From NCBI RefSeq assembly GCF_016887565.1, contig NZ_CP069396.1, positions 4,491,001 to 4,555,000 of the forward strand: a stretch of 64,000 bases of DNA, in the 5' to 3' direction. This document shows, piece by piece, positions 30,102-46,330 of the stretch. Numbering within the stretch: the first letter of the stretch is position 1; each line of letters starts with the position of its first letter. The notes under the pieces are model-generated. The model did no database searches. It saw nothing but the letters and a program-made list of their open reading frames with translations, and had not been told where the DNA came from. The translations under genes were made by a program, and so were the position numbers. The DNA is from Archangium violaceum (GTDB taxonomy: Bacteria; Myxococcota; Myxococcia; Myxococcales; Myxococcaceae).

Positions 30102-30244
30102 CCGATGCGCCCGGAGAAAAGGAGCCTGTAACCCGACGAGACCGGACCGCGTATGTCAGACCGCGCACGCACTCTCCCGGGTGATTGGACTCCCCACCAC
30201 GTGCAGTCCCCATCTCCCACCCAGGAAGTTCGAAAGGAAGTTCC

Positions 30245-30490
30245 ATGAACGTCAAGGCCATGGCCGCCATCGTCGGTACGCTCTCCCTCGGTACGCTCGC
30301 CACCGGCTGTGCGACCGCGAAGCCCATGAAGTCCTCCGTCTCCTCGGAGAGGGGCAGCGAGTACGCCTGCAAGGTCGACGTCTCGGCCGCCCGGCAGGTT
30401 GACGACACCGCCAGCACCGCCACCGCCGAGAAGGCCAGCGAGCACTCGTGTGGTAACGCCAGCTGTGGCGGCGCCACCAAGCCCCAGTAG
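30245..30490 (+). CDS. lipoprotein-type Cys-rich RiPP precursor for the MNIO system
   Basis: An 81-residue peptide with a basic start, hydrophobic core and lipobox LATGC (Cys22), then a Ser/Ala/Thr-rich region with only three further Cys: Cys42 (SEYACKVD), Cys69 and Cys74 (HSCGNASCGG). AAGGAAG precedes ATG 30245. It sits directly ahead of the DUF692 and DUF2063 genes, the place of BufA/HvfA precursors, whose Cys residues are modified by the MNIO enzyme to give copper- or other metal-binding peptides. The CGxxxCGG pattern resembles the ExxCG motifs of HvfA-type precursors. A lipid-anchored precursor would be unusual. Alternative: an unmodified small lipoprotein. Confidence 0.75.
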   Translation: MNVKAMAAIVGTLSLGTLATGCATAKPMKSSVSSERGSEYACKVDVSAARQVDDTASTATAEKASEHSCGNASCGGATKPQ

Positions 30491-30499
30491 TCATCGCGC

Positions 30500-30525
30500 C
30501 TCCCGAGACTCTCGGGGGTTGTCTT
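30500..30525 (+). terminator. attenuator-like hairpin after the precursor gene
   Basis: CTCCCGAG-ACT-CTCGGGGG (30500-30518) can form an eight-pair stem with a three-base loop (one G-T pair) and is followed by TTGTCTT. Placed between precursor and enzyme genes, it may end most transcripts so that precursor is made in excess. Confidence 0.5.
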
Positions 30526-30583
30526 CCGGGCGGCAGGGGGTCTCCTCTCGCCGCCCGCGTCTTTTTCAAGGGGAGTCATCGAC

Positions 30584-31432
30584 GTGCCAGCGAGCTATGC
30601 GCGCAGACATGGATTGAAGCCGCTCGGGGCGGGCATCGGACTGCGGCGCGAGTTCTACGCGCGCCTCCCGGAGACCTCTCGCGCGCTGGACTGGGTGGAG
30701 ATCATCCCCGAGAACTTCCTCACGCTCGGAGGCCGTCCCCAGCGCGCGCTGGACGCGTGCGTGGAGCGCTGGCCGACGCTGCCGCACGGCGTGGCGCTGA
30801 ACATCGGCGGGCCCGAGCCGCTGGACGGGGACTACCTCACGGGGCTGAAGGCGTTGGTGGAGCGGGTGGACGCGCCCTTCTTCTCGGACCACCTCTGCTA
30901 CACGCGGCTGGGTGGGGCGTACCTGTATGACCTGCTCCCGCTGCCCTTCTCGGAGGAGGCGGTGGAGCACGTGGTGCCGCGGGTGCGCGAGGTGAAGGAG
31001 CGGGTGGGCCGGCCCTTCCTACTGGAGAACCCGAGCTACTACGCGCGCATGCCGGGGGGCACGCTGGACGAGGCGGCCTTCCTGCGGCACGTGGCCGAGG
31101 AGGCGGACTGCGGCCTGCTGCTGGACGTGAACAACGTCTACGTGAACGCGCAGAACCACGGGTATGACCCGAGGGCCTTCGTGGACGCGCTGCCGCTGGA
31201 GCGGGTGGTGCAGATCCACCTGGCGGGGCACGAGCGGCTGCCGGACGTCATCATCGACACGCACGGGGCGGCCGTCTGCGACGACGTGTGGACGCTGTAC
31301 CGCTACGTGCTGGAGCGCACGGGGCCGGTGTCGACGCTGATCGAATGGGATCAGGACATTCCCTCGCTGGACGCGGTGCTGGACGAGGCGGACCGGGCGC
31401 GCGCGGTGCTGGCGCGGGTGGAGGGGCGATGA
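30584..31432 (+). CDS. bufB: MNIO / DUF692 multinuclear iron oxidase
   Basis: A 282-residue TIM-barrel protein of the DUF692 (MNIO) family, full length. Expected iron ligands and active-site residues are visible: E39/E43 (VEIIPENF), H103 (SDHLCY), E148 (LLENPSYY), D181/N183/N184 (LLDVNNVYVNA), H212/H216 (IHLAGH), H227 (IDTHG), E254 (IEWDQD). MNIOs use two or three iron ions and O2 to modify Cys in peptide substrates, giving oxazolone/thioamide or thiooxazole groups. GTG start with AAGGGGAG upstream. Its stop overlaps the start of the DUF2063 partner (ATGA). The symbol follows the bufferin nomenclature and denotes family, not proven function. Confidence 0.92.
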   Translation: MPASYARRHGLKPLGAGIGLRREFYARLPETSRALDWVEIIPENFLTLGGRPQRALDACVERWPTLPHGVALNIGGPEPLDGDYLTGLKALVERVDAPFFSDHLCYTRLGGAYLYDLLPLPFSEEAVEHVVPRVREVKERVGRPFLLENPSYYARMPGGTLDEAAFLRHVAEEADCGLLLDVNNVYVNAQNHGYDPRAFVDALPLERVVQIHLAGHERLPDVIIDTHGAAVCDDVWTLYRYVLERTGPVSTLIEWDQDIPSLDAVLDEADRARAVLARVEGR

Positions 31433-32145
31433 AACCCGGGCTGCGTGGCTTCTTCGATTCGATGGCGGAGTACTTCGCGAACCCGGGCCCCGAGGGGGTG
31501 GAGCGGCTGTACGGGGCGCACCCGGGCTGGGACGCGCCGCGCTCGCGGGTGGAGCTCTACGGTCGCCTGGTGCGCCACCACGTGGGGGCCACGCTGGAGA
31601 AGCTCTACCCGCTGACGCGCGTGGGCGTGGGCGAGGAGCGGTGGGAGGCGCTGGTGCGGGCGTACGAGGCGAGCCGGCCCCCGCGCCCCTTCGAGATGAA
31701 CCGGATGGGCGAGGGCTTCCCGGGCTTCCTCGCGGACGAGGTGGAGCGGCGCGGGTTGCCGACCTTCCTGCCCGCGCTGGCGCGCTTCGAGTGGACGGAC
31801 TTCGCGGTGTACGCGTCGCTGGAGCCGGTGCCGGAGAAGGTGGAGCGGCTGACGGTGAACCCGACGCTGGTGGTGCTGGAGCACCCCTTCCAGCTCTGCG
31901 CCTACGTGCGCGCCCGGGGCCAGGGACAGCCGGAGCCGGGGCAGGAGATGGCGCTGCTGTGGCGGCACCCGGAGCGGCTGGTGACGATGTTCGTGGCCGC
32001 CAGTGACCGCTCGCTGCTCACGGTGAAGATGGCGCTGGAGGGGCTCACGCCGTCCCGGGTGGCCGAGGCGACGGGCGTGGCCGAGGCCGACATCCAGGCC
32101 GCCGTGGACGAGAGCGTGGCGGACGGCCTCGTCCTGTCTCCCTGA
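31429..32145 (+). CDS. bufC: DUF2063 RiPP partner protein (BufC/HvfC-like)
   Basis: A 238-residue protein with the DUF2063 N-terminal domain (LRGFFDSMAEYFANP...LYGRLVRHHVGATLEKLYPLT) and a C-terminal winged-helix-like part (LTPSRVAEATGVAEADIQAAVDESVADGLV). Such partners bind the precursor leader and present it to the MNIO. Translationally coupled to the DUF692 gene by ATGA. No DoxX-type membrane gene (BufD/HvfD) follows; a strong terminator comes directly after the stop. Cytoplasmic. Confidence 0.88.
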   Translation: MKPGLRGFFDSMAEYFANPGPEGVERLYGAHPGWDAPRSRVELYGRLVRHHVGATLEKLYPLTRVGVGEERWEALVRAYEASRPPRPFEMNRMGEGFPGFLADEVERRGLPTFLPALARFEWTDFAVYASLEPVPEKVERLTVNPTLVVLEHPFQLCAYVRARGQGQPEPGQEMALLWRHPERLVTMFVAASDRSLLTVKMALEGLTPSRVAEATGVAEADIQAAVDESVADGLVLSP

Positions 32146-34699: not shown

Positions 34700-35779
34700 C
34701 TAACGTCGTGGACGGCAGACGGCGCCCACGGCCGTCTCGGTGCAGGCGAAGCCCTCGGGACACTCGGTGTCCGAGGTGCAGCGGAAGGTGCAGGACTCCT
34801 CGACACACAGCCCCTGGACGATGCCGCGGGCCCTGCAGCGCTCGTCTCCGTCGCAGGAGGCGCCCACCTGCCGGTACGCGAAGCAGCTCGCGAGCTGGGC
34901 CTGTTGGGGCAGGCACCACGTACCCTGGCAGGTGAAGCCCTGCGGGCATTCCGTCTTGCCGTCACATCGCGCCACGCAGGCCATGAGGCCCCTGGGGAGA
35001 GTCTCGCAGCGCACGCTGGACATGCACTGCCAGTCCCCATTGCAGGCGGCGCACAGGACGCCGGGCCCCTCGCAGCGCTCGCTCCGGCAGGAGAAGCCCG
35101 GAGTGCACTGGTCATCCGCGGTGCACTCCACGCACCGCCCATCCGAGGCACAGTGGGTGCCGCGCTCGCAGCCGGTGACGGTGCAACCCTGTTTGATGAG
35201 GTCATCGTCCGGTTCGGAGAGCTGGACCTTCAGCTCCTTCTGCTCGCTCTCCTTCACGCAGGCGTTCGTCTTCTTCACCGGGTAGCCGGGGACGGAGACC
35301 TCGAGGTCGTAGCAGCCATCCGGAAGGGGACCCAGGCGCAGGCAGCCGTCCTCGTCGAGCCGCAGGCCCTGGAAGGGCATGCCCATCACGGAGACCTGTC
35401 CGTCGCTCACGCGCTGGTGCGAGGGCGCCTTCACCCGCAGCGCCAGGAAGCCGGCCTCGCGCGGCACCACTTCTTCCAGGTGCGCCGAGCCGCCCCCGGG
35501 CACCTGCACCGGCAGGCGCACCGCCTTGTCCGCCGAGGCCAGGATGAAGAGCTCCACCGGACCCGCGGGCACGTTCTTCAACACGAAGCTCCCGTCCTCG
35601 GCCACGGTGCCGCGCAGCGCCGGGTCGCCCACCAGCGACACCAGGGCCACCGACGGGTCCGCCTCCGTGAGACGGCCCCGCACGGTGCCCGTCCGGAAGG
35701 GAGTGTTGTCGAATCCCCCGCACGCGCCTACCGCGACGGCGAGGGTCATCATCACGCTGTAGTAGACGGTCTGGCGCAT
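34700..35779 (-). CDS. Cys-rich lipoprotein with carboxypeptidase-regulatory-like domain
   Basis: A 359-residue exported protein; the signal (MTLAVAVGACGG) has a lipobox-like VGAC. Residues 30-185 contain two beta-sandwich segments of the PEGA/CarboxypepD_reg type (GTVAEDGSFVLKNVPAGPVELFI; DEDGCLRLGPLPDGCYDLEVS). Residues 190-359 hold about 22 Cys in short modules (CERGTHCASDGRCVECTADDQC), resembling EGF-like or stigma-repeat-type regions of myxobacterial surface proteins. Start at 35779 overlaps the caspase gene stop (TGATG), so the two are made together; it could be a substrate or surface partner of the caspase. Confidence 0.72.
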   Translation of the reverse strand: MRQTVYYSVMMTLAVAVGACGGFDNTPFRTGTVRGRLTEADPSVALVSLVGDPALRGTVAEDGSFVLKNVPAGPVELFILASADKAVRLPVQVPGGGSAHLEEVVPREAGFLALRVKAPSHQRVSDGQVSVMGMPFQGLRLDEDGCLRLGPLPDGCYDLEVSVPGYPVKKTNACVKESEQKELKVQLSEPDDDLIKQGCTVTGCERGTHCASDGRCVECTADDQCTPGFSCRSERCEGPGVLCAACNGDWQCMSSVRCETLPRGLMACVARCDGKTECPQGFTCQGTWCLPQQAQLASCFAYRQVGASCDGDERCRARGIVQGLCVEESCTFRCTSDTECPEGFACTETAVGAVCRPRR

Positions 35780-37428
35780 CAGAAGCGGTACCCCACGCCG
35801 GCCCATCCACCGGAGAATCCCACGGCCTGCCCCTGCCCATCCACCACCACGTACGTCAGCATCAGCTGCGTCTGCGCGGCCAGCTCCAGCCGGTCGTTCA
35901 GACGCCACACCACGCCACCCACCACGCCCGGGCTGAAGGTGAAGTACTGCTGAGCCCCGGTGAAGGCCTCTGTCTGAAAGGACCGCTGGAGCAGCAGAGC
36001 GGCCACACGCGGCCCCGCGTAGAGCGACAGCCGCTCCCACCGCCACGTGTAGGGCACCGCGGCCCCCAGCGACAGCGAGGTGTAGGTGAAGGGCACGGAG
36101 CCGCCGGGCACCAGGTTGAGGCTGCGCCGGCCCCGGCTGCCACTCACGTCGAAGACGAGGCTGAGGTCCGGCAGCGGCCGCTCCTCCAACCGCAGCACCA
36201 CCGCCAGCTCCGGCGCGGCCGGCAGCAGTTCGTCGCGGCTGCGCGCGTCCACGAAGGAGAACATGCCGCCCATCACCGACAGAGAGCGGCGCGGGAAGGC
36301 CTGGGACAGCAGCCGCTCCAGCGGCAGGCGCTCGCCCGCGGTGATGTCCACCACCTCGCGGATGAGGACGTTGTCCCCCTTGGTGAGCTCCACGGTGCGG
36401 CGGCCGGGCGTCACGGCGGCGCCTCCGGGCAGCTCCGTGCGCGTCTCGCCATCCACCTTCAGCGTGAAGCCATCCAGCCGGGGGTTGTACGAGAAGAGCT
36501 CCGGACGGCCCATCCGGTCGATCCGCCCGGAGAGCACCACCGGATCCGCGCCCACCTCGAGGATCTCCGCCGAGGGCCGCTGCCGCCCCTCGGTGAAGGC
36601 ATAGGTGTGGCGGCGCGCGTAGTCGTGGGCCTCGGTGGCGGTGACGGCGCCGTCGACGTTGCGGTCCGCGGCCCCGTTCAACCCGTTGATGAGGAAGTGG
36701 GTGTAGATGTCGTTGCGCAGCCCCTCGTCCTCGCGGGCCGTCTCGCCCCAGTCGCAGGCGGCGAAGACCATGGAGGCACGGCTCGACTCCTCGATGGGGC
36801 GCGCGTAGAAGCCGGACTTGATGCCCGCCAGCTCGGCCTCCAGCTCGCGGGGCAGCAGCGACTTGCCGCTGCCGCTGTGACACGTGGCCAGCACCATCAG
36901 CCGGCGGCGCGAGGGCAGCTGGTCGAACTCGGACTTGAGCGCGTCCATGGACAGCGCCGTCTGCGGAATGTCCCGGAAGGCGGCGTCCGTGGTGACCAGG
37001 TAGCGCTTGAGCTCGCCCTTGCCGTCGCGGGCCAGCGTGCCGTGCGCCGAGAAGTACACCACCACCACGTCATCCGGCCGGGTGGCCTCCTGCCGCAGCT
37101 GGCGCAGCGCGGCGAGGATGGAGGCGCGGGTCGTCTCCTCGGGCCGGGAGAGGACGCGCACCCGGTCGAAGTGGCCGCGTCCGGGATCCCTCAGCGCCGC
37201 GGCCAGATCCTCCGCGTCCTTGGAGGAGTAGCGCAGGTTGCGCCACTGGCTGTCCTGGAACTGCGACACGCCCACCAGCAGCGCCAGGCGCCGGGGGGCG
37301 TAGGCGTCGGAGAGCGCTGTCTCGTCCACCTTCACGGACACGAGCCCGCCCTTGCCGCCCTTCTCGAGCGAGCCCGGGCTCGCGCAAGCCGCGAGTACCG
37401 CCAGGAGCGTGAAGAGGATGCGTCTCAC
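35779..37428 (-). CDS. caspase-family (C14) cysteine protease lipoprotein
   Basis: A 549-residue protein with lipobox LAAC (Cys15). Residues 45-290 are a caspase/metacaspase-like p20 domain: RLALLVGVSQF, catalytic His129 in YFSAHG and Cys183 in LATCHSG. An EF-hand-like loop (DRNVDGAVTATE) follows. Residues 320-380 are PEGA-like, and the last 170 residues are alternating beta strands ending in Phe (WAGVGYRF), as in outer-membrane barrels. Bacterial orthocaspases usually cleave after Arg or Lys. The enzyme would be placed at the outer membrane. It follows the anti-sigma gene with a four-base overlap and is co-transcribed with the sigma factor. Confidence 0.87.
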   Translation of the reverse strand: MRRILFTLLAVLAACASPGSLEKGGKGGLVSVKVDETALSDAYAPRRLALLVGVSQFQDSQWRNLRYSSKDAEDLAAALRDPGRGHFDRVRVLSRPEETTRASILAALRQLRQEATRPDDVVVVYFSAHGTLARDGKGELKRYLVTTDAAFRDIPQTALSMDALKSEFDQLPSRRRLMVLATCHSGSGKSLLPRELEAELAGIKSGFYARPIEESSRASMVFAACDWGETAREDEGLRNDIYTHFLINGLNGAADRNVDGAVTATEAHDYARRHTYAFTEGRQRPSAEILEVGADPVVLSGRIDRMGRPELFSYNPRLDGFTLKVDGETRTELPGGAAVTPGRRTVELTKGDNVLIREVVDITAGERLPLERLLSQAFPRRSLSVMGGMFSFVDARSRDELLPAAPELAVVLRLEERPLPDLSLVFDVSGSRGRRSLNLVPGGSVPFTYTSLSLGAAVPYTWRWERLSLYAGPRVAALLLQRSFQTEAFTGAQQYFTFSPGVVGGVVWRLNDRLELAAQTQLMLTYVVVDGQGQAVGFSGGWAGVGYRF

Positions 37429-38231
37429 CGTGGGACGGGATTGTGCCCTTTATCCGGGTGGACGAGGAGGTCGAACCTGTTGACGGCCAATGCCGAGAGC
37501 TCCTCCATGTCGCCACGGGTGAGTGCCTCGCGCACCTCGTCGGGAGGGAGCGCCTGTCCGGAGGGGAAGCCCACCAGCCACACGGTGAGAGGGCCGGATT
37601 CGCCCTCGAGGCTGAGGCCCACGAGGCCCTGGGGGCCTTCCAGTTCATGCGTGCCAGCCTGGAGCGGGAACTGGCCGAGCAGCTCGGGCTCCATGCCGTC
37701 GCGCCGCTGGAAGAGGAGGGCCTCACCGGCCTCGGTGGAGTGGTAGCGCAGCACCAGCACCTCGTTGTCCGAGGCGGCGGCGCCTGGATCCATCCGGCGC
37801 AGGTTTCCGGACGGCTCGCGGGCCACCACGGACATCTCCAGGGCCAGACGGCCCACGCCCTTCAGCCCGTCCCAGCTCGCCGTCTCCTGCCCATGGGGCA
37901 CCTGGACGCGGGTGAGGACGACGAGCCCCGCGAGGCCCGCGGCGAGCGCCACGCCCACGGCCACCTTGCGCCAGACGGGGGAGGGGCCTCGCAGACCCCG
38001 GCGGATACGGGCGTATCCCACCTCGTCGAGCGGGGGCTCTTCCGGCTGGCCGGGCGCCAGGTGGAGCAGCAGGGCATCCACCTGCCCATCGAGCAGTCCG
38101 GGTCCCGGCGTCTTCGCCAGGAACTCCATGCACTGCTCGCACGGGTGCGTCAGGTGCTCGCGGAAGTACGCCACCGACTCCGGCTCACCGGCCGTCAGGG
38201 TACGCAGGGCTTCGGCATCCAGGTGTCTCAT
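37425..38231 (-). CDS. putative anti-sigma factor, membrane-bound
   Basis: A 268-residue protein directly after the ECF sigma gene (five-base gap). The N-terminal part has a zinc-anti-sigma-like cluster (H26, H29, C31, C34 in EHLTHPCEQCMEFL), a single transmembrane helix (VGVALAAGLAGLVVLT, near residue 95) and a periplasmic beta-rich domain of about 160 residues. The cluster is not the exact HxxxCxxC spacing. Expected to hold the sigma factor inactive until an envelope signal arrives. Its end overlaps the caspase start by four bases. Confidence 0.72.
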   Translation of the reverse strand: MRHLDAEALRTLTAGEPESVAYFREHLTHPCEQCMEFLAKTPGPGLLDGQVDALLLHLAPGQPEEPPLDEVGYARIRRGLRGPSPVWRKVAVGVALAAGLAGLVVLTRVQVPHGQETASWDGLKGVGRLALEMSVVAREPSGNLRRMDPGAAASDNEVLVLRYHSTEAGEALLFQRRDGMEPELLGQFPLQAGTHELEGPQGLVGLSLEGESGPLTVWLVGFPSGQALPPDEVREALTRGDMEELSALAVNRFDLLVHPDKGHNPVPR

Positions 38232-38236
38232 CCCAC

Positions 38237-38821
38237 TTACTCCCACCGTCCAGCGAGCACGCGCCGGAGCAGCTCCTGCTTGATCCGGGCGCGGAAGCGC
38301 TCCAGGCGCATCGTCACGGCACTCTTTCCTACGCCAAGCTTCTCGGCGATCTCCCGGGCGGACAGCTGGCCGTCCACATAGAAGAGGTACACCGTCTTCT
38401 TCTCCTCGCCCTCGGGCAGCTCGTCGATGAGCTGGCGGACCACGGCCATGTCGCGCTCGAGCTGGAGGGCCTCGGGGACGAGGGCGACCGTCTCCGGCTG
38501 GGGGTCGGGGTTCTCCTCGCCGAGCCGGCGCGTCTGGCCCTTGCGCTCGAGCCGGGTCCGGGCCCGGTTGCGGGCGATGGACAGGAGCCAGGCCTCGAAG
38601 GCGGCCGGCTCCTTGAGCCGGGGGAGCGCCTTGAAGGCGCGCACGTAGGTTTCCTGGATCACGTCTTCCACCTCGTCCGGGTCCAGCGGGGCGAAGCTGG
38701 AGGTCAAACGTGCCACCAGGGGGCGGGTCCGCCGGTACAGCTCGCTGAAGGCAGGCGTCTCCCCCCGTGCCGCCCGCACCACCCACTCCCTCAACTCCCT
38801 CGGGGAACTCACCTGACTCAT
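38237..38821 (-). CDS. ECF-type RNA polymerase sigma factor
   Basis: A 194-residue sigma-70-family protein with region 2 ([17 protein letters not shown]...[16 protein letters not shown]) and region 4 ([32 protein letters not shown]). ATG 38821 has GGAGGG a few bases upstream. It heads the operon sigma, anti-sigma, caspase, Cys-rich lipoprotein. ECF factors usually autoactivate their own promoter; this one lies in the gap toward the divergent serC gene. Confidence 0.92.
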
Positions 38822-38946
38822 GGACCCTCCGGGCGCCGGAGCGGCCACACGCCCAGGGGTGGACGGATAGCGCGCTTCTCGCTTCCCCTCGGGGGGGCGT
38901 TGGGCAGAATGGCCGCGCGGTTGTTCACTTTCGTGAGGACACAGCC

Positions 38947-40035
38947 ATGCGCGTCATCAACTTCAACCCCGGCCCCGCTGGACTGCCCCTGCCCGCCCTG
39001 GAGCGGGCGCGGGACGAGCTGATCGATTTCCAGGGCTCCGGCATGTCCATCATGGAGCACAGCCACCGGGGCAAGGAGTACGAGGCGGTCCACACGGAGA
39101 CCATCTCCCTGCTCACCGAGCTGCTGGGCATCCCGGACACCCACCAGGTGCTGTTCCTCACGGGAGGGGCCGCGCAGCAGTTCGCGCAGGTTCCGATGAA
39201 CTTCCTGCCTCCGGGGGCCAGCGCGGACTACCTGATCACGGGGGGGTGGAGCGAGAAGGCCTATGAGGAGGCGAAGCTGGTGGGGCAGGCGCGCATCGCC
39301 GCCACCACGGTGTTGCCGGACAAGCGCTACGTGCGGGTGCCTCGGCCGGACGAGGTGAAGGTGGACCCGAAGGCCGCCTACGTGCACATGACGAGCAACA
39401 ACACCCTCTACGGCACGCAGTGGCACACGTGGCCCGAGGTGGGGGACGTGCCGTTGGTGGCGGACATGAGCTCGGACTTCATGTGGAAGCCGACGGACGT
39501 GAGCCGCTTCGCGTTCATCTACGCGGGGGCGCAGAAGAACCTGGGCCCCTCGGGCGTCCTCATCGCGGTGGCCCGCAAGGACTTCATCGCCCGGGGACGC
39601 AAGGACATCCCGAAGATCTTCCGCTACTCGACGCACGCGGAAAACAACTCGCTCTACAACACGCCGCCGACCTTGGCCATCTACCTGTGCCGCAACGTGC
39701 TGGCGTGGGCGAAGCAGGTGGGAGGCCTGGCGCAGCTGGAGAAGTGGAACCGGGAGAAGGGCGAGCTGCTCTACGGGGCGTTGGACAAGCACGCGGGGTT
39801 CTACCAGGCGCCGGTGGAGAGGGAGTCGCGCTCGTTCATGAACGTGGTGTTCAAGCTGCCCTCGGAGGCGCTGGACGACAAGTTCGTGGCGGAGGCGAAG
39901 AAGGCGGGGATGGTGGGGCTCAAGGGACACCGGCTCACGGGAGGCATCCGCGTGTCCACGTACAACGCGGTGTCGGTGGACAACGTGAAGACGCTGGTCT
40001 CGTTCATGGAGGAGTTCATCCGCAAGAACGGGTAG
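38947..40035 (+). CDS. serC: phosphoserine aminotransferase SerC
   Basis: A 362-residue class V aminotransferase of full length, starting [13 protein letters not shown]. The PLP lysine is Lys197 in [12 protein letters not shown]; the substrate-binding HSHRGKEY and GIRVSTYN segments are present. It makes phosphoserine from 3-phosphohydroxypyruvate and glutamate (serine pathway) and may also serve pyridoxine synthesis. ATG 38947 is the first in-frame ATG before the homologous start. Divergent from the ECF sigma gene; followed by an exported chalcone-isomerase-like gene after 30 bases. Confidence 0.96.
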
Positions 40036-42973: not shown

Positions 42974-45900
42974 TCAGGGACGTCTGTCGCCAAAGAGCTG
43001 CCGGCTCGGACGGCGCTCCCACCGGGGAGTCACATCGCGTGACACCTCGCCCGGGTCGGGCAACTCCAGTACCTCGTGGTGCAGAGCGACGTCCTGGTCA
43101 GTCTTGCGCACCAGGAGGAGGGTGTAGGTCCCCGGCGGGATGAAGGGGAAGTGGAAGAGGCCCGGTTCGTCCGAGGACGAGGGCCAGTAGGCCGACACCA
43201 CCATCCGCTGCAAGGCTTCAGGTGAGTCCGGCGCCGGGACGCTTCCATCGACGAGGAGGAGACCGAAGGAGTAGGGCTTCATGTCGACCCCGAGCAGCCT
43301 CAGCCTCAGTGTGGTGCCGGCCCGGGCTTCCTCGAAATCGAGCGTCACCACGCCCTGGGTGGGAATCTCCACGCGTTGGGGATGGATCGTCCGCGCTCGG
43401 TCGATGTGCCTGCCGTTGAGCCGCACGATGTAGCTGCCCGCGGGCAGGCCACGGAATTCGTAGGCGCTTTCGGCGACGGGCTCGTGCTTCTCGAAGGACC
43501 CATCCAGCGAGCGGATGCCGATGCCGTACAAGCGCTTTTCCGCCAGGTTCACCCTTCCCCGGAGGATGGCTCCCTTGTCGAGCGACACCGTCACCTCCGT
43601 CCGCTGGGAATCGAGCGCCATCCGCTTCTGGATGTACGCCGGATGCACCACGGTGAGTGTGAGGGGGCGCTCCTCGACACCCGAGAGGGTGAAGGAGCCG
43701 TCGCCCTGGGTCCGCGCCGCGCCGTCCCCCTCGCGGAGGGAGCCGAGCTCCCGTGTGTCCACCGGAGTGTCGCTCACGCCCACCATCGCTCCGGAGACGG
43801 GGCCGCCGGTGGCCGCATCCACCACCTTGCCCCGGAGGGTGCGGCCGGTCTCGAGCACCACCTCGCCGAGCGTGGTGTCCTCTCCCTCCTTCACCTGGAG
43901 CTCGCGAGTGGTTCCCACGAGGCGCGGAGCGGTGAAGTCGAGCTTCGCCGTTCCGCTCTGGTCGATGGGCCAGGTGAAGATTCCCTGGGGGTGCGTCATC
44001 TGGACGCCATTGAGCTGGAAGCGCGTGACGGGCGTGCCGTCGGTGCGCACCACGCGTCCGCGGATGGTGCCTCGCTGTTGGAGGACGAGACGCAGGTTCG
44101 TGGCACCCGCCCGGACCTCGATACCGTCATTGCTGCTTCCGGTCTCCGAGCTCGTGCTCCCGCTCGCCTTCGCATCGAAGACATACCCATCCTTCACGGC
44201 GCTCACCTCGTAACGCCGGGTCTCGAGGTGTCGCAGCTGGAAGCGCCCGTCGGCCCCCGTGTAGGGGCCCTCCGCCCCGTTCGCGTAGTACGCCCTTTCC
44301 TCCTCCCCCGGCTCCATCAGTCGATAGGCTCGGATGCGGGCCTCGGGAACGGGTCTGCCCTCGCCATCGACGACGATGCCCGCCAGCGGTAGCCCCGCGG
44401 GGAGCTGGAGCCGCACCTGGAGCGATTGCGTTCCCACGAGCTCGACGGGCCGGGAGACCTTTCGCATTTCCGCGCTCGGTGTATCCCGGGCGGAGAGGAC
44501 GTACTTTCCGGGTAGCAACCCCTCGAGGGTGAAGTGTCCCTGCTCGTCCGTGGTGGTCTGCCTCTCCGGCCTCGAGCCGGCTTCTGGCTCGGGCGGCGCT
44601 ATCGAGACCGTCGCTCGTGAGACGGGCGCCCCTGTCTCATCCACCACCGCGCCCACCACCTCCGCGCCCGTGGACAGCACGACCTGGACTCCAGTCGATG
44701 GTGCCGACACGGGCCGCGTGATGGGCGTGAAGTCCCCATGATCGGCCTGGAGCTGGTAGTTGCCGGGCTTCGGTGCCGCGAGCGCGAACGTGCCATCCTT
44801 CTCGCTGGAGGACCGGACGACTTCCTCGTCGCCGAGGTCCTTCAGCAGGAGCGTCACGTTCTCGAGGGGCTCGCCACGGGGTCCCACCACCCGGCCCTCG
44901 ACCACGGCGGCTTCCTCGAGGACGAAGTCCTGGGAGGTGGGCCCCTCCACGTACTTCACCACGGGCGGCGGGTTCAGGTACCGCGGCGCTTCCACCCTGA
45001 AATGGTACTTCCCTGGCTCGATGGGGCCGAGCTCATAGGTGCCCTCCGAAGTCGTCCGGGTCTTCCTCCACGGGTGCCCGTATTCAGCGACGAGGGACTG
45101 CATCGAGATCCTGGCTCCGGAAATGGGCCGGCCGGATGTGTCTCGCACCGTCCCCATCACCCGAGCGCCCGCCCCGAGCTCCAGCACGAGCTCCGAGTCG
45201 TCCACGCCGGGTTGGAGCAACGCCTGCCCGGCCGCATCCAGTCCCGAGAAGGTGGCACCCACCTCATACCAACCCGGGCGCAGGCCCTCGAAGGAGAAGC
45301 GGCCCTGTTCGTTCGTGGGGGTGTCGAGCTTGCGGTGCTCGCCCTCGGCGCGCACCCGGGCGCCCGGCACGGGCTTGCCACCCCTCGTCACCTGGCCCGC
45401 GAGCCGCAGCGGCCGCAGGAGCGTCACGGGCTGCTCGCGCTCGGAGAGCTCGCGCACCATCGCGTGTTCGTGCAGGAAGCCTTCCTTGGCGAAGACGAGG
45501 TTGTACTCCCCCTCCGGCAGTGGCCCGAGGCGCCAGCGGCCCTCCGCGTCGGAGAGTGTGTCGAAGAAGCGGCTGTGCTCGACGAAGATCGCGGTGACGA
45601 GCGTCCCCGGGACGGGCCGGCCCTCCTCGTCGGTGAGGTGGCCCGAGAGCGTCATTCCCTGGCCGACCCGCAGCTCGACGTCCTCCGTGCCCGTCCCGAC
45701 GTCCTGCCGGAGCGCGGTGCCGAAGGGGCTCTCGGTCCAGAGGGCATAGCGGCCCGTCTCCAGTCCCTCGAGGGAGAAGTGGCCCCGCGCGTCCGAGGTG
45801 GTGCGTGCGAGGGGAGGCGCCTCTCCCCGCCGCACCGTCACCAGCTCCGCCTGTTGGGAGGCCGCCATGCCGCAGCCGCACTGGAGCAGCTTCTGCTCGC

Positions 45901-46228
45901 AGTGGTTGTCGCACTGGCAGGGCAGCTCGGAGAGCGCCTCGTCCGGGGTGGGGGAGGTGGCCACCACCACCGCGCCGGGGACGGGCTCGCCCTGGGGCCC
46001 CACCACGGTGCCACGGATGTGGAGGCTTCCGCGAGGGGCGGGGAGTGGCGCCTCGAGGAGCGCGTTCACCGGGCGCTGGTGTCGAGCGGTGTCCCGTGCT
46101 CCCTCGTGCCGCCCGGTCTCCTCCTCCGTCAGGTCGCTCGCGGGCCTGTCCGTCCACGTGCCGCTCGCGTACCCGAGCACGGCCGCCAGCACGGCCAGCG
46201 CGACACCGATTCCCAGCCACCGACGCAT
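42974..46228 (-). CDS. giant carboxypeptidase-regulatory-domain repeat protein
   Basis: A 1084-residue exported protein: N-terminal hydrophobic helix (LGIGVALAVLAAVLGYASG) then about ten tandem beta-sandwich domains of the CarboxypepD_reg type, marked by repeats such as G-x-V-x-D-x2-G-x-P-V-x2-A and GxFxLxGLxPGxYxL. Near residue 105 is a Cys cluster, CQCDNHCEQKLLQCGCG, that could bind metal or form disulfides. No enzyme domain. Likely a long surface or periplasmic stalk. ATG 46228 is favoured over the GTG nine bases earlier because GAGAGGGG is at a proper distance. Confidence 0.82.
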   Translation of the reverse strand: MRRWLGIGVALAVLAAVLGYASGTWTDRPASDLTEEETGRHEGARDTARHQRPVNALLEAPLPAPRGSLHIRGTVVGPQGEPVPGAVVVATSPTPDEALSELPCQCDNHCEQKLLQCGCGMAASQQAELVTVRRGEAPPLARTTSDARGHFSLEGLETGRYALWTESPFGTALRQDVGTGTEDVELRVGQGMTLSGHLTDEEGRPVPGTLVTAIFVEHSRFFDTLSDAEGRWRLGPLPEGEYNLVFAKEGFLHEHAMVRELSEREQPVTLLRPLRLAGQVTRGGKPVPGARVRAEGEHRKLDTPTNEQGRFSFEGLRPGWYEVGATFSGLDAAGQALLQPGVDDSELVLELGAGARVMGTVRDTSGRPISGARISMQSLVAEYGHPWRKTRTTSEGTYELGPIEPGKYHFRVEAPRYLNPPPVVKYVEGPTSQDFVLEEAAVVEGRVVGPRGEPLENVTLLLKDLGDEEVVRSSSEKDGTFALAAPKPGNYQLQADHGDFTPITRPVSAPSTGVQVVLSTGAEVVGAVVDETGAPVSRATVSIAPPEPEAGSRPERQTTTDEQGHFTLEGLLPGKYVLSARDTPSAEMRKVSRPVELVGTQSLQVRLQLPAGLPLAGIVVDGEGRPVPEARIRAYRLMEPGEEERAYYANGAEGPYTGADGRFQLRHLETRRYEVSAVKDGYVFDAKASGSTSSETGSSNDGIEVRAGATNLRLVLQQRGTIRGRVVRTDGTPVTRFQLNGVQMTHPQGIFTWPIDQSGTAKLDFTAPRLVGTTRELQVKEGEDTTLGEVVLETGRTLRGKVVDAATGGPVSGAMVGVSDTPVDTRELGSLREGDGAARTQGDGSFTLSGVEERPLTLTVVHPAYIQKRMALDSQRTEVTVSLDKGAILRGRVNLAEKRLYGIGIRSLDGSFEKHEPVAESAYEFRGLPAGSYIVRLNGRHIDRARTIHPQRVEIPTQGVVTLDFEEARAGTTLRLRLLGVDMKPYSFGLLLVDGSVPAPDSPEALQRMVVSAYWPSSSDEPGLFHFPFIPPGTYTLLLVRKTDQDVALHHEVLELPDPGEVSRDVTPRWERRPSRQLFGDRRP

Positions 46229-46330
46229 CTGCTCCACCCCCTCTCGGCTCGCGGAGCCGAGCGCGTGAGACGCCTCACCGGGAGCGTAGGACTGGCGGAG
46301 CCTTCCGCGTCAACCGGCCGTTCGCGGGAG

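Follow-up and report, generated by a model that had tools for sequence, protein, structure and literature searches.

The window analysed here, a stretch of 64,000 nucleotides from Archangium violaceum (contig NZ_CP069396.1, positions 4,491,001 to 4,555,000; one closed genome of 13.2 Mb), contains an operon for an extracytoplasmic function (ECF) sigma factor, a membrane anti-sigma-like protein, a caspase and a lipoprotein, all four encoded on the minus strand from 38821 down to 34700. We propose that the caspase is the first protease of the adjoining sigma/anti-sigma switch, which would make the module a self-contained route from envelope to transcription, and we assign this reading a probability of roughly 0.55. 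It is carried by a lysine motif, Lys-Gly (or Lys-Ser/Ala), that recurs at three sites: K26 of the caspase, K204 in the linker between its p20 and p10 parts, and K124 of the anti-sigma. At the level of sequence, the gene order, the catalytic dyad, the signal peptide with its lipobox and these matching motifs are established.

In the proposed mechanism, an outer-membrane or envelope cue would let the caspase zymogen cut itself, after K26 to free it from its lipid and after K204 to free p20 from the p10/barrel part. The released fragment (178 residues, 19.7 kDa), which would contain both His129 and Cys183, could then cleave the anti-sigma on the far side of K124, at a distance of about 16 residues from the inner membrane. 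Such a cut would take the place of site-1 cleavage in regulated intramembrane proteolysis (RIP); the rest of the anti-sigma would be removed by housekeeping proteases, and the ECF sigma factor thus set free would drive transcription of its own operon as well as of other genes. The lipoprotein probably serves at the outer membrane as a partner that senses the cue or activates the caspase, the least supported of these steps. An earlier note on this DNA, made from the sequence alone, had suspected a proteolytic system with the caspase under control of the sigma factor. A role in proteolytic signalling stands as the likeliest reading, and the direction of control may be the opposite of the one assumed there, with the caspase acting on the anti-sigma and not merely being expressed under the sigma factor.

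Recurrence of the sigma/caspase module

The four genes are as tightly packed as the earlier note had described, with a 5-base gap between sigma and anti-sigma, a 4-base overlap between anti-sigma and caspase and a 1-base overlap between caspase and lipoprotein. The gene order, which it proposed to look for in other myxobacteria, is kept, on one strand, in 45 of 45 close loci (L011-L055; sets of 15 and 30, the window itself within the 30, and some genomes possibly in both). By caspase, the nearest named relatives are other Archangium, at 85-90% identity. Across 145 genomes of the order, a caspase match with E <= 1e-10 was obtained in 121, and 60, the own genome included, hold a relative of at least 64% identity over nearly the whole length. 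Sigma and caspase are kept in nearly every fetched locus of more distant relatives (48-58% identity), whose anti-sigmas and lipoproteins are often too diverged for a single-sequence search.

The tie between caspases and sigma/anti-sigma pairs, which the note had described for this operon, extends to paralogues. In the own genome, each of the 10 caspase genes has a same-strand sigma gene no more than about 2 kb away, upstream in nine cases and downstream in one; with a limit of 2.5 kb, a sigma gene on the same strand lies upstream of 9/10 of these caspases versus 0.5% of random sites. Outside the own family, across 58 genomes of the phylum, sigma genes were found upstream in 25 of the best-scoring 42 caspase matches (23 new loci plus L073 and L075). 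Among the other 17, L185 shows an anti-sigma and L167 a sigma/anti-sigma pair downstream, and L160 and L184 begin less than 600 bases from a contig end. A rearranged module occurs in L082, L267, L270 and L285, with the caspase upstream of the sigma gene, the anti-sigma downstream and KG motifs kept in both proteins.

In a rival explanation the caspase would be an effector, an envelope protease induced by the sigma factor and directed at targets in the outer membrane or outside the cell (prey, neighbouring cells or, in developmental lysis, the cell itself), with the KG of the anti-sigma serving a structural purpose. The caspase does lie downstream of the sigma gene in operon order, and a 2012 survey suggested, in the part drawn on here, a link to developmental cell death in M. 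xanthus (PMC3501461). The ten modules, each with its own sigma pair, nevertheless look more like ten signalling channels than one effector, and we consider this explanation unlikely.

Lysine motifs shared by caspase and anti-sigma

In the anti-sigma, G122, K124 and G125 are invariant across 16 orthologues within a linker that varies in length and sequence, a setting that speaks against a structural role for the motif. In the caspase, K26-G27-G28 and the linker Lys204 are invariant in A1. All 46 caspases of the window's class have a Lys at exactly Cys+21, with S, A, G or T as the next residue. In a second class the K-G stands at Cys+9, mostly as R-x-K-G, and in others at +13, +8 or +7 (five caspases initially scored as 'none' have K-G at Cys+7 and are counted as Lys-type). 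A KG within the 30 residues ahead of the caspase domain is present in 46/46 window-class proteins (8.5 expected) and in 0/31 of the second class, most of which have no lipobox. This restriction to the lipoprotein class is as expected if the job of the N-terminal site is to sever the lipid anchor.

A KG follows the membrane helix in 71/73 caspase-linked anti-sigmas and, after reduction to non-redundant sequences (<45% identity), in 41/43, versus 8.5 expected from shuffling. For caspase-free sigma genes of the own genome, 40 loci were fetched and 18 gave an adjoining membrane open reading frame (ORF); none of these 18, some of which are not certain anti-sigmas, has KG after its helix. The linker Lys is present in 73/74 sigma-linked caspases; of the 18 caspases for which no upstream sigma was found, 12 lack it. 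These matched motifs, which hold across the phylum, would be left unaccounted for if an ordinary sigma/anti-sigma pair had been joined to a protease gene by co-regulation alone, with no direct molecular link between the products; operons are often kept for co-expression only, and even so we hold this explanation to be improbable.

A phylum-wide count gave 163 distinct sigma-adjacent membrane proteins after removal of sigma matches below 40 bits, caspase matches below 90 bits, ORFs outside 150-420 aa, weak helices and identical sequences. A caspase was part of the module for 145 of them. The linker Lys was found in 143 of these caspases, and 142 of their anti-sigmas carried KG, the remaining one KA. 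The other two caspases have a linker Arg, and neither of their anti-sigmas has KG; in L299, RG stands in caspase and anti-sigma alike. Anti-sigmas without a caspase fall into four lineages, grouped by regional sequence likeness and not by a tree. The Lys was lost in two of them, one comprising L144/L264, L258/L271, L273 and L274, the other L259/L272 (RG) with L296 (QG). The anti-sigma motif thus takes an Arg form or disappears in modules with an Arg-type caspase linker, and two caspase-free lineages have lost it too; both points count against the caspase as an effector and the motif as a structural element.

Several assignments in this count need qualification. L296 had been scored as KG from a KG further along, with QG at the motif position itself. 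L237 and L251 were scored caspase-free from short loci, and the wider L267 and L270 show the caspase upstream; in L073, scored likewise, the caspase lies just past the distance limit. L155 and its relative L290 hold only fragments of sigma and caspase, and L135/L263 have a divergent caspase about 2.4 kb away.

A number of observations weigh against the proposed switch. The two remaining caspase-free lineages kept KG, which the effector explanation would accommodate: that of L246/L268, L247/L269 and L283, and L286, an orphan sigma/anti-sigma pair on whose contig (that of G168) an orphan Lys-type caspase, L176, lies about 13 kb off; the two may represent one split module. With two caspase-free lineages having lost the Lys and two having kept KG, their support for cleavage is therefore only partial. 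L071 and L176 are caspases with a linker Lys for which no neighbouring sigma was found, and L179 combines a caspase Arg with an anti-sigma Met, which is no exact match. Covariation of the P3 residue between caspase linker and anti-sigma was considered and dropped: the overall p of 0.0076 dissolves into 0.85 within the window class, where the residue does not covary, and 0.11 within the other. The model of the full-length caspase is poor (predicted local distance difference test, pLDDT, 55.6). Asp71 is present, and the residue two before the catalytic Cys is Ala throughout the window class; Asp71 and an Asp two before the Cys occupy what we take to be S1-pocket-like positions of a caspase, and the Ala therefore makes the cleavage specificity of this class less certain. 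Furthermore, a protease held at the outer membrane could act on an inner-membrane site only once it has been set free. The main confounder is common ancestry of the modules, which can explain joint conservation without any cleavage. Three observations argue against common descent as the sole cause: the module with RG in both proteins, the lost Lys in two of the caspase-free lineages and the confinement of the N-terminal site to the lipoprotein class.

The same shared motifs would also suit a docking site, at which the anti-sigma binds and restrains the caspase as a pseudo-substrate, so that the anti-sigma would control the protease. Both proteins are predicted to face the periplasm, and we found nothing that separates this arrangement cleanly from cleavage. 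The flexible juxtamembrane placement of the KG fits cutting better than tight inhibition, and we give docking a low probability compared with the caspase as first protease.

Predicted anatomy of the proteins and their surroundings

The caspase domain matches PF00656 at 58.2 bits (cut-off 21.4; E 1.3e-15; Pfam), and a His-Cys dyad is present in 215/215 aligned caspases; in the window protein it is intact, with His129 and Cys183 where the earlier note had placed them. By domain assignment and dyad, the protein qualifies as a peptidase C14/orthocaspase, and given the poor full-length model the assignment of the domain itself rests on sequence; of the structure models, only that of the C-terminus was used. 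Cys15 of the lipobox, also claimed earlier, is invariant among 16 orthologues, and a lipoprotein signal is present.

The outer-membrane barrel that the earlier note had suspected at the C-terminus, where it allowed for a soluble domain instead, is what the structure prediction returned. In the AlphaFold2 model of the last 250 residues (m968c49e962ea, pLDDT 73.3), a small beta domain is followed by eight long strands. Foldseek gave 21 PDB matches with E <= 0.001, headed by OmpA, Ail, NspA, OmpX and OmpW (OmpA: E 7.5e-7, template modelling (TM) score, target, 0.67), and the C-terminal residue is Phe. With eight strands and a terminal aromatic residue, the region is a predicted 8-stranded barrel of the OmpA/OmpX/OmpW type. 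Together, the lipoprotein signal and the barrel imply that the caspase should face the periplasm, as does the C-terminal half of the anti-sigma, and support, as a prediction, the outer-membrane placement proposed earlier, with the caspase held by lipid and barrel. Among 92 caspases, the C-terminal part has median lengths of 250 and 271 residues in the two main linker-Lys classes, usually ending in F, W or L, and of 29 residues in the 13 proteins lacking the linker Lys. A plasmid search for a paralogous caspase gave 4 distant matches. A defence system was considered and rejected, PADLOC returning only a generic caspase match (E 5.6e-11) and no other match among the four genes.

With Sigma70_r2 (PF04542, E 6e-15) and r4_2 (PF08281, E 4e-6) both over the Pfam cut-off, the sigma gene product is identified by domain content (regions 2 and 4, 194 aa) as an ECF sigma factor. 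The second protein gave no match in the Pfam search; we call it an anti-sigma from its position, its single membrane helix, an N-terminal H-x4-C-x2-C and homologues in other modules. H26, C31 and C34 are invariant across 16 orthologues, in a spacing that differs from the H-x3-C-x2-C signature in the cytoplasmic part of zinc-binding anti-sigma (ZAS) proteins. The C-terminal half is predicted to be a periplasmic beta-rich domain. Anti-sigmas of paralogous modules show weak zf-HC2 and DUF4384 matches; all five DUF4384 matches in the own genome fall within caspase modules, and a phylum-wide repeat of that search yielded no new loci by itself, 20 places from its list being retrieved by their coordinates.

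In the lipoprotein, carboxypeptidase-regulatory-like beta domains (PF13620, 34.9 bits versus a cut-off of 32.3; TIGR04201 under cut-off) precede a Cys-rich C-terminal half. It contains 30 Cys in total, correcting the earlier estimate of some 22. Lipoprotein-like genes of seemingly unrelated sequence also follow the own-genome caspase modules L083, L085, L086 and L089, and such modules may recurrently have a lipoprotein of variable kind as their downstream partner. The carboxypeptidase-regulatory-like domain type of the operon's lipoprotein recurs many times in a 1087-aa protein encoded elsewhere in the window (42974-46237, minus strand).

Coordinates of the operon features in the window (residue numbers refer to the encoded protein)
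Feature	Position	Strand	Basis
ECF sigma factor gene, 194 aa	38237..38821	-	Sigma70_r2 + r4_2 (Pfam), TIGR02937
Membrane anti-sigma-like protein, 268 aa	37425..38231	-	position, helix, H/C residues
Anti-sigma predicted membrane helix, residues 89-107	37911..37967	-	hydropathy maximum 2.07
Anti-sigma K124-G125, candidate caspase site just outside inner membrane	37857..37862	-	
Caspase (peptidase C14, orthocaspase), lipoprotein signal and predicted C-terminal barrel, 549 aa, GTG start	35779..37428	-	
Caspase K26-G27-G28 after lipidated Cys15, candidate self-cleavage site	37345..37353	-	
Caspase domain, residues 46-286	36571..37293	-	Pfam boundaries
Catalytic His129 codon	37042..37044	-	
Catalytic Cys183 codon	36880..36882	-	
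Linker Lys204 (Cys+21), candidate p20/p10 self-cleavage site	36817..36819	-	
Predicted 8-stranded outer-membrane barrel, about residues 380-549	35782..36291	-	AlphaFold2 + Foldseek
Lipoprotein, 359 aa	34700..35779	-	PF13620

Across the interval 38822-38947 the sigma operon diverges from a class-V aminotransferase gene, whose start is seen in most of 18 upstream regions compared, and a GTGGCC block is conserved ahead of sigma. GTGGCC and GGAA-like blocks, common to the 18 regions, were considered as a sigma promoter; because their spacing varies widely, we claim none. Elsewhere in the window, 30185-32145 (plus strand) is a likely operon for a ribosomally synthesized and post-translationally modified peptide (RiPP), encoding a small secreted peptide that contains Cys (ORF 30185-30490), an enzyme of the MbnB/TglH/ChrH type (PF05114, E 7e-104) and its DUF2063 partner.

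Relation to known systems

The earlier note regarded a caspase under direct control of an envelope-sensing sigma factor and placed in the outer membrane as, to its knowledge, undescribed. Sigma-caspase operons have in fact been in print since Asplund-Samuelsson et al. (2012), who are cited here from part of their survey: of the five metacaspases of M. xanthus, four are encoded in operons with sigma-70 factors, and the same arrangement occurs in Anaeromyxobacter, Haliangium, Sorangium, Ralstonia and Fibrobacter (PMC3501461). The linkage itself is therefore not new; what appears to be new is the predicted anatomy of the caspase together with the shared Lys motif. Searches of an open-access library brought up no report of an anti-sigma as the target of a caspase, nor one of a caspase with an outer-membrane barrel, a structure for which we did not search by name.

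For bacterial caspase homologues, the literature consulted mostly suggests a role in cell death and names few substrates. If the proposal is true, the sigma-linked caspases of an entire phylum would gain a substrate, a site of cleavage and a pathway, and sigma-factor signalling would gain a first protease of a new kind. As a more tentative generalisation, caspases of this class could be receptor-linked signalling proteases in which the barrel senses a cue, p20 excises itself at two Lys residues and cuts the one anti-sigma with the matching KG, and the module's own sigma factor is switched on; about ten insulated channels of this type may operate in one myxobacterial genome. Because the prediction names single residues (K26, K204 and K124), it is directly testable.

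Among the closest parallels are the RIP-type ECF systems, E. coli RseA/DegS/RseP and P. aeruginosa MucA/AlgW, which combine a single-helix anti-sigma with a periplasmic first cut and release of the sigma factor, as is proposed here. In contrast to their trypsin-like PDZ protease, the proposed site-1 protease here would be a caspase-fold cysteine protease from the same operon with a barrel of its own.

By gene content, the M. xanthus operons are of the same kind as that of the window, with caspase gene and sigma factor in one operon; the portion of the 2012 account used here mentions no anti-sigma, barrel, lipoprotein partner, substrate or mechanism beyond a possible role in cell death (PMC3501461). 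According to the sections used of a review, the non-metazoan C14 enzymes that had been characterised up to 2017 favour Arg/Lys at P1, and the only orthocaspase among those characterised at that time, MaOC1 of Microcystis, needs p20 self-processing for activity (PMC5756287). MaOC1 shares the His-Cys p20 and Arg/Lys at P1 and differs in having no additional C-terminal domain; those sections describe neither a secretion signal nor a linked sigma factor (PMC5756287).

Two further systems place caspase-like proteases beside ECF sigma factors, each described here from part of its source. In the EACC1/EACC2 conflict systems, a caspase occurs with an ECF sigma factor nearby in many EACC2 loci and self-proteolysis has been proposed (PMC8195603). 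Assignment of the window caspase to the EACC1-associated type (NF047832) was tried and rejected, the protein scoring 99.3 bits under a cut-off of 140 in a comparison that did not search the EACC domains separately. ECF54 sigma factors, with CHAT, subtilase and carboxypeptidase neighbours, likewise pair a caspase-superfamily protease with an ECF sigma factor, and there, too, proteolytic control has been proposed (PMC8999054).

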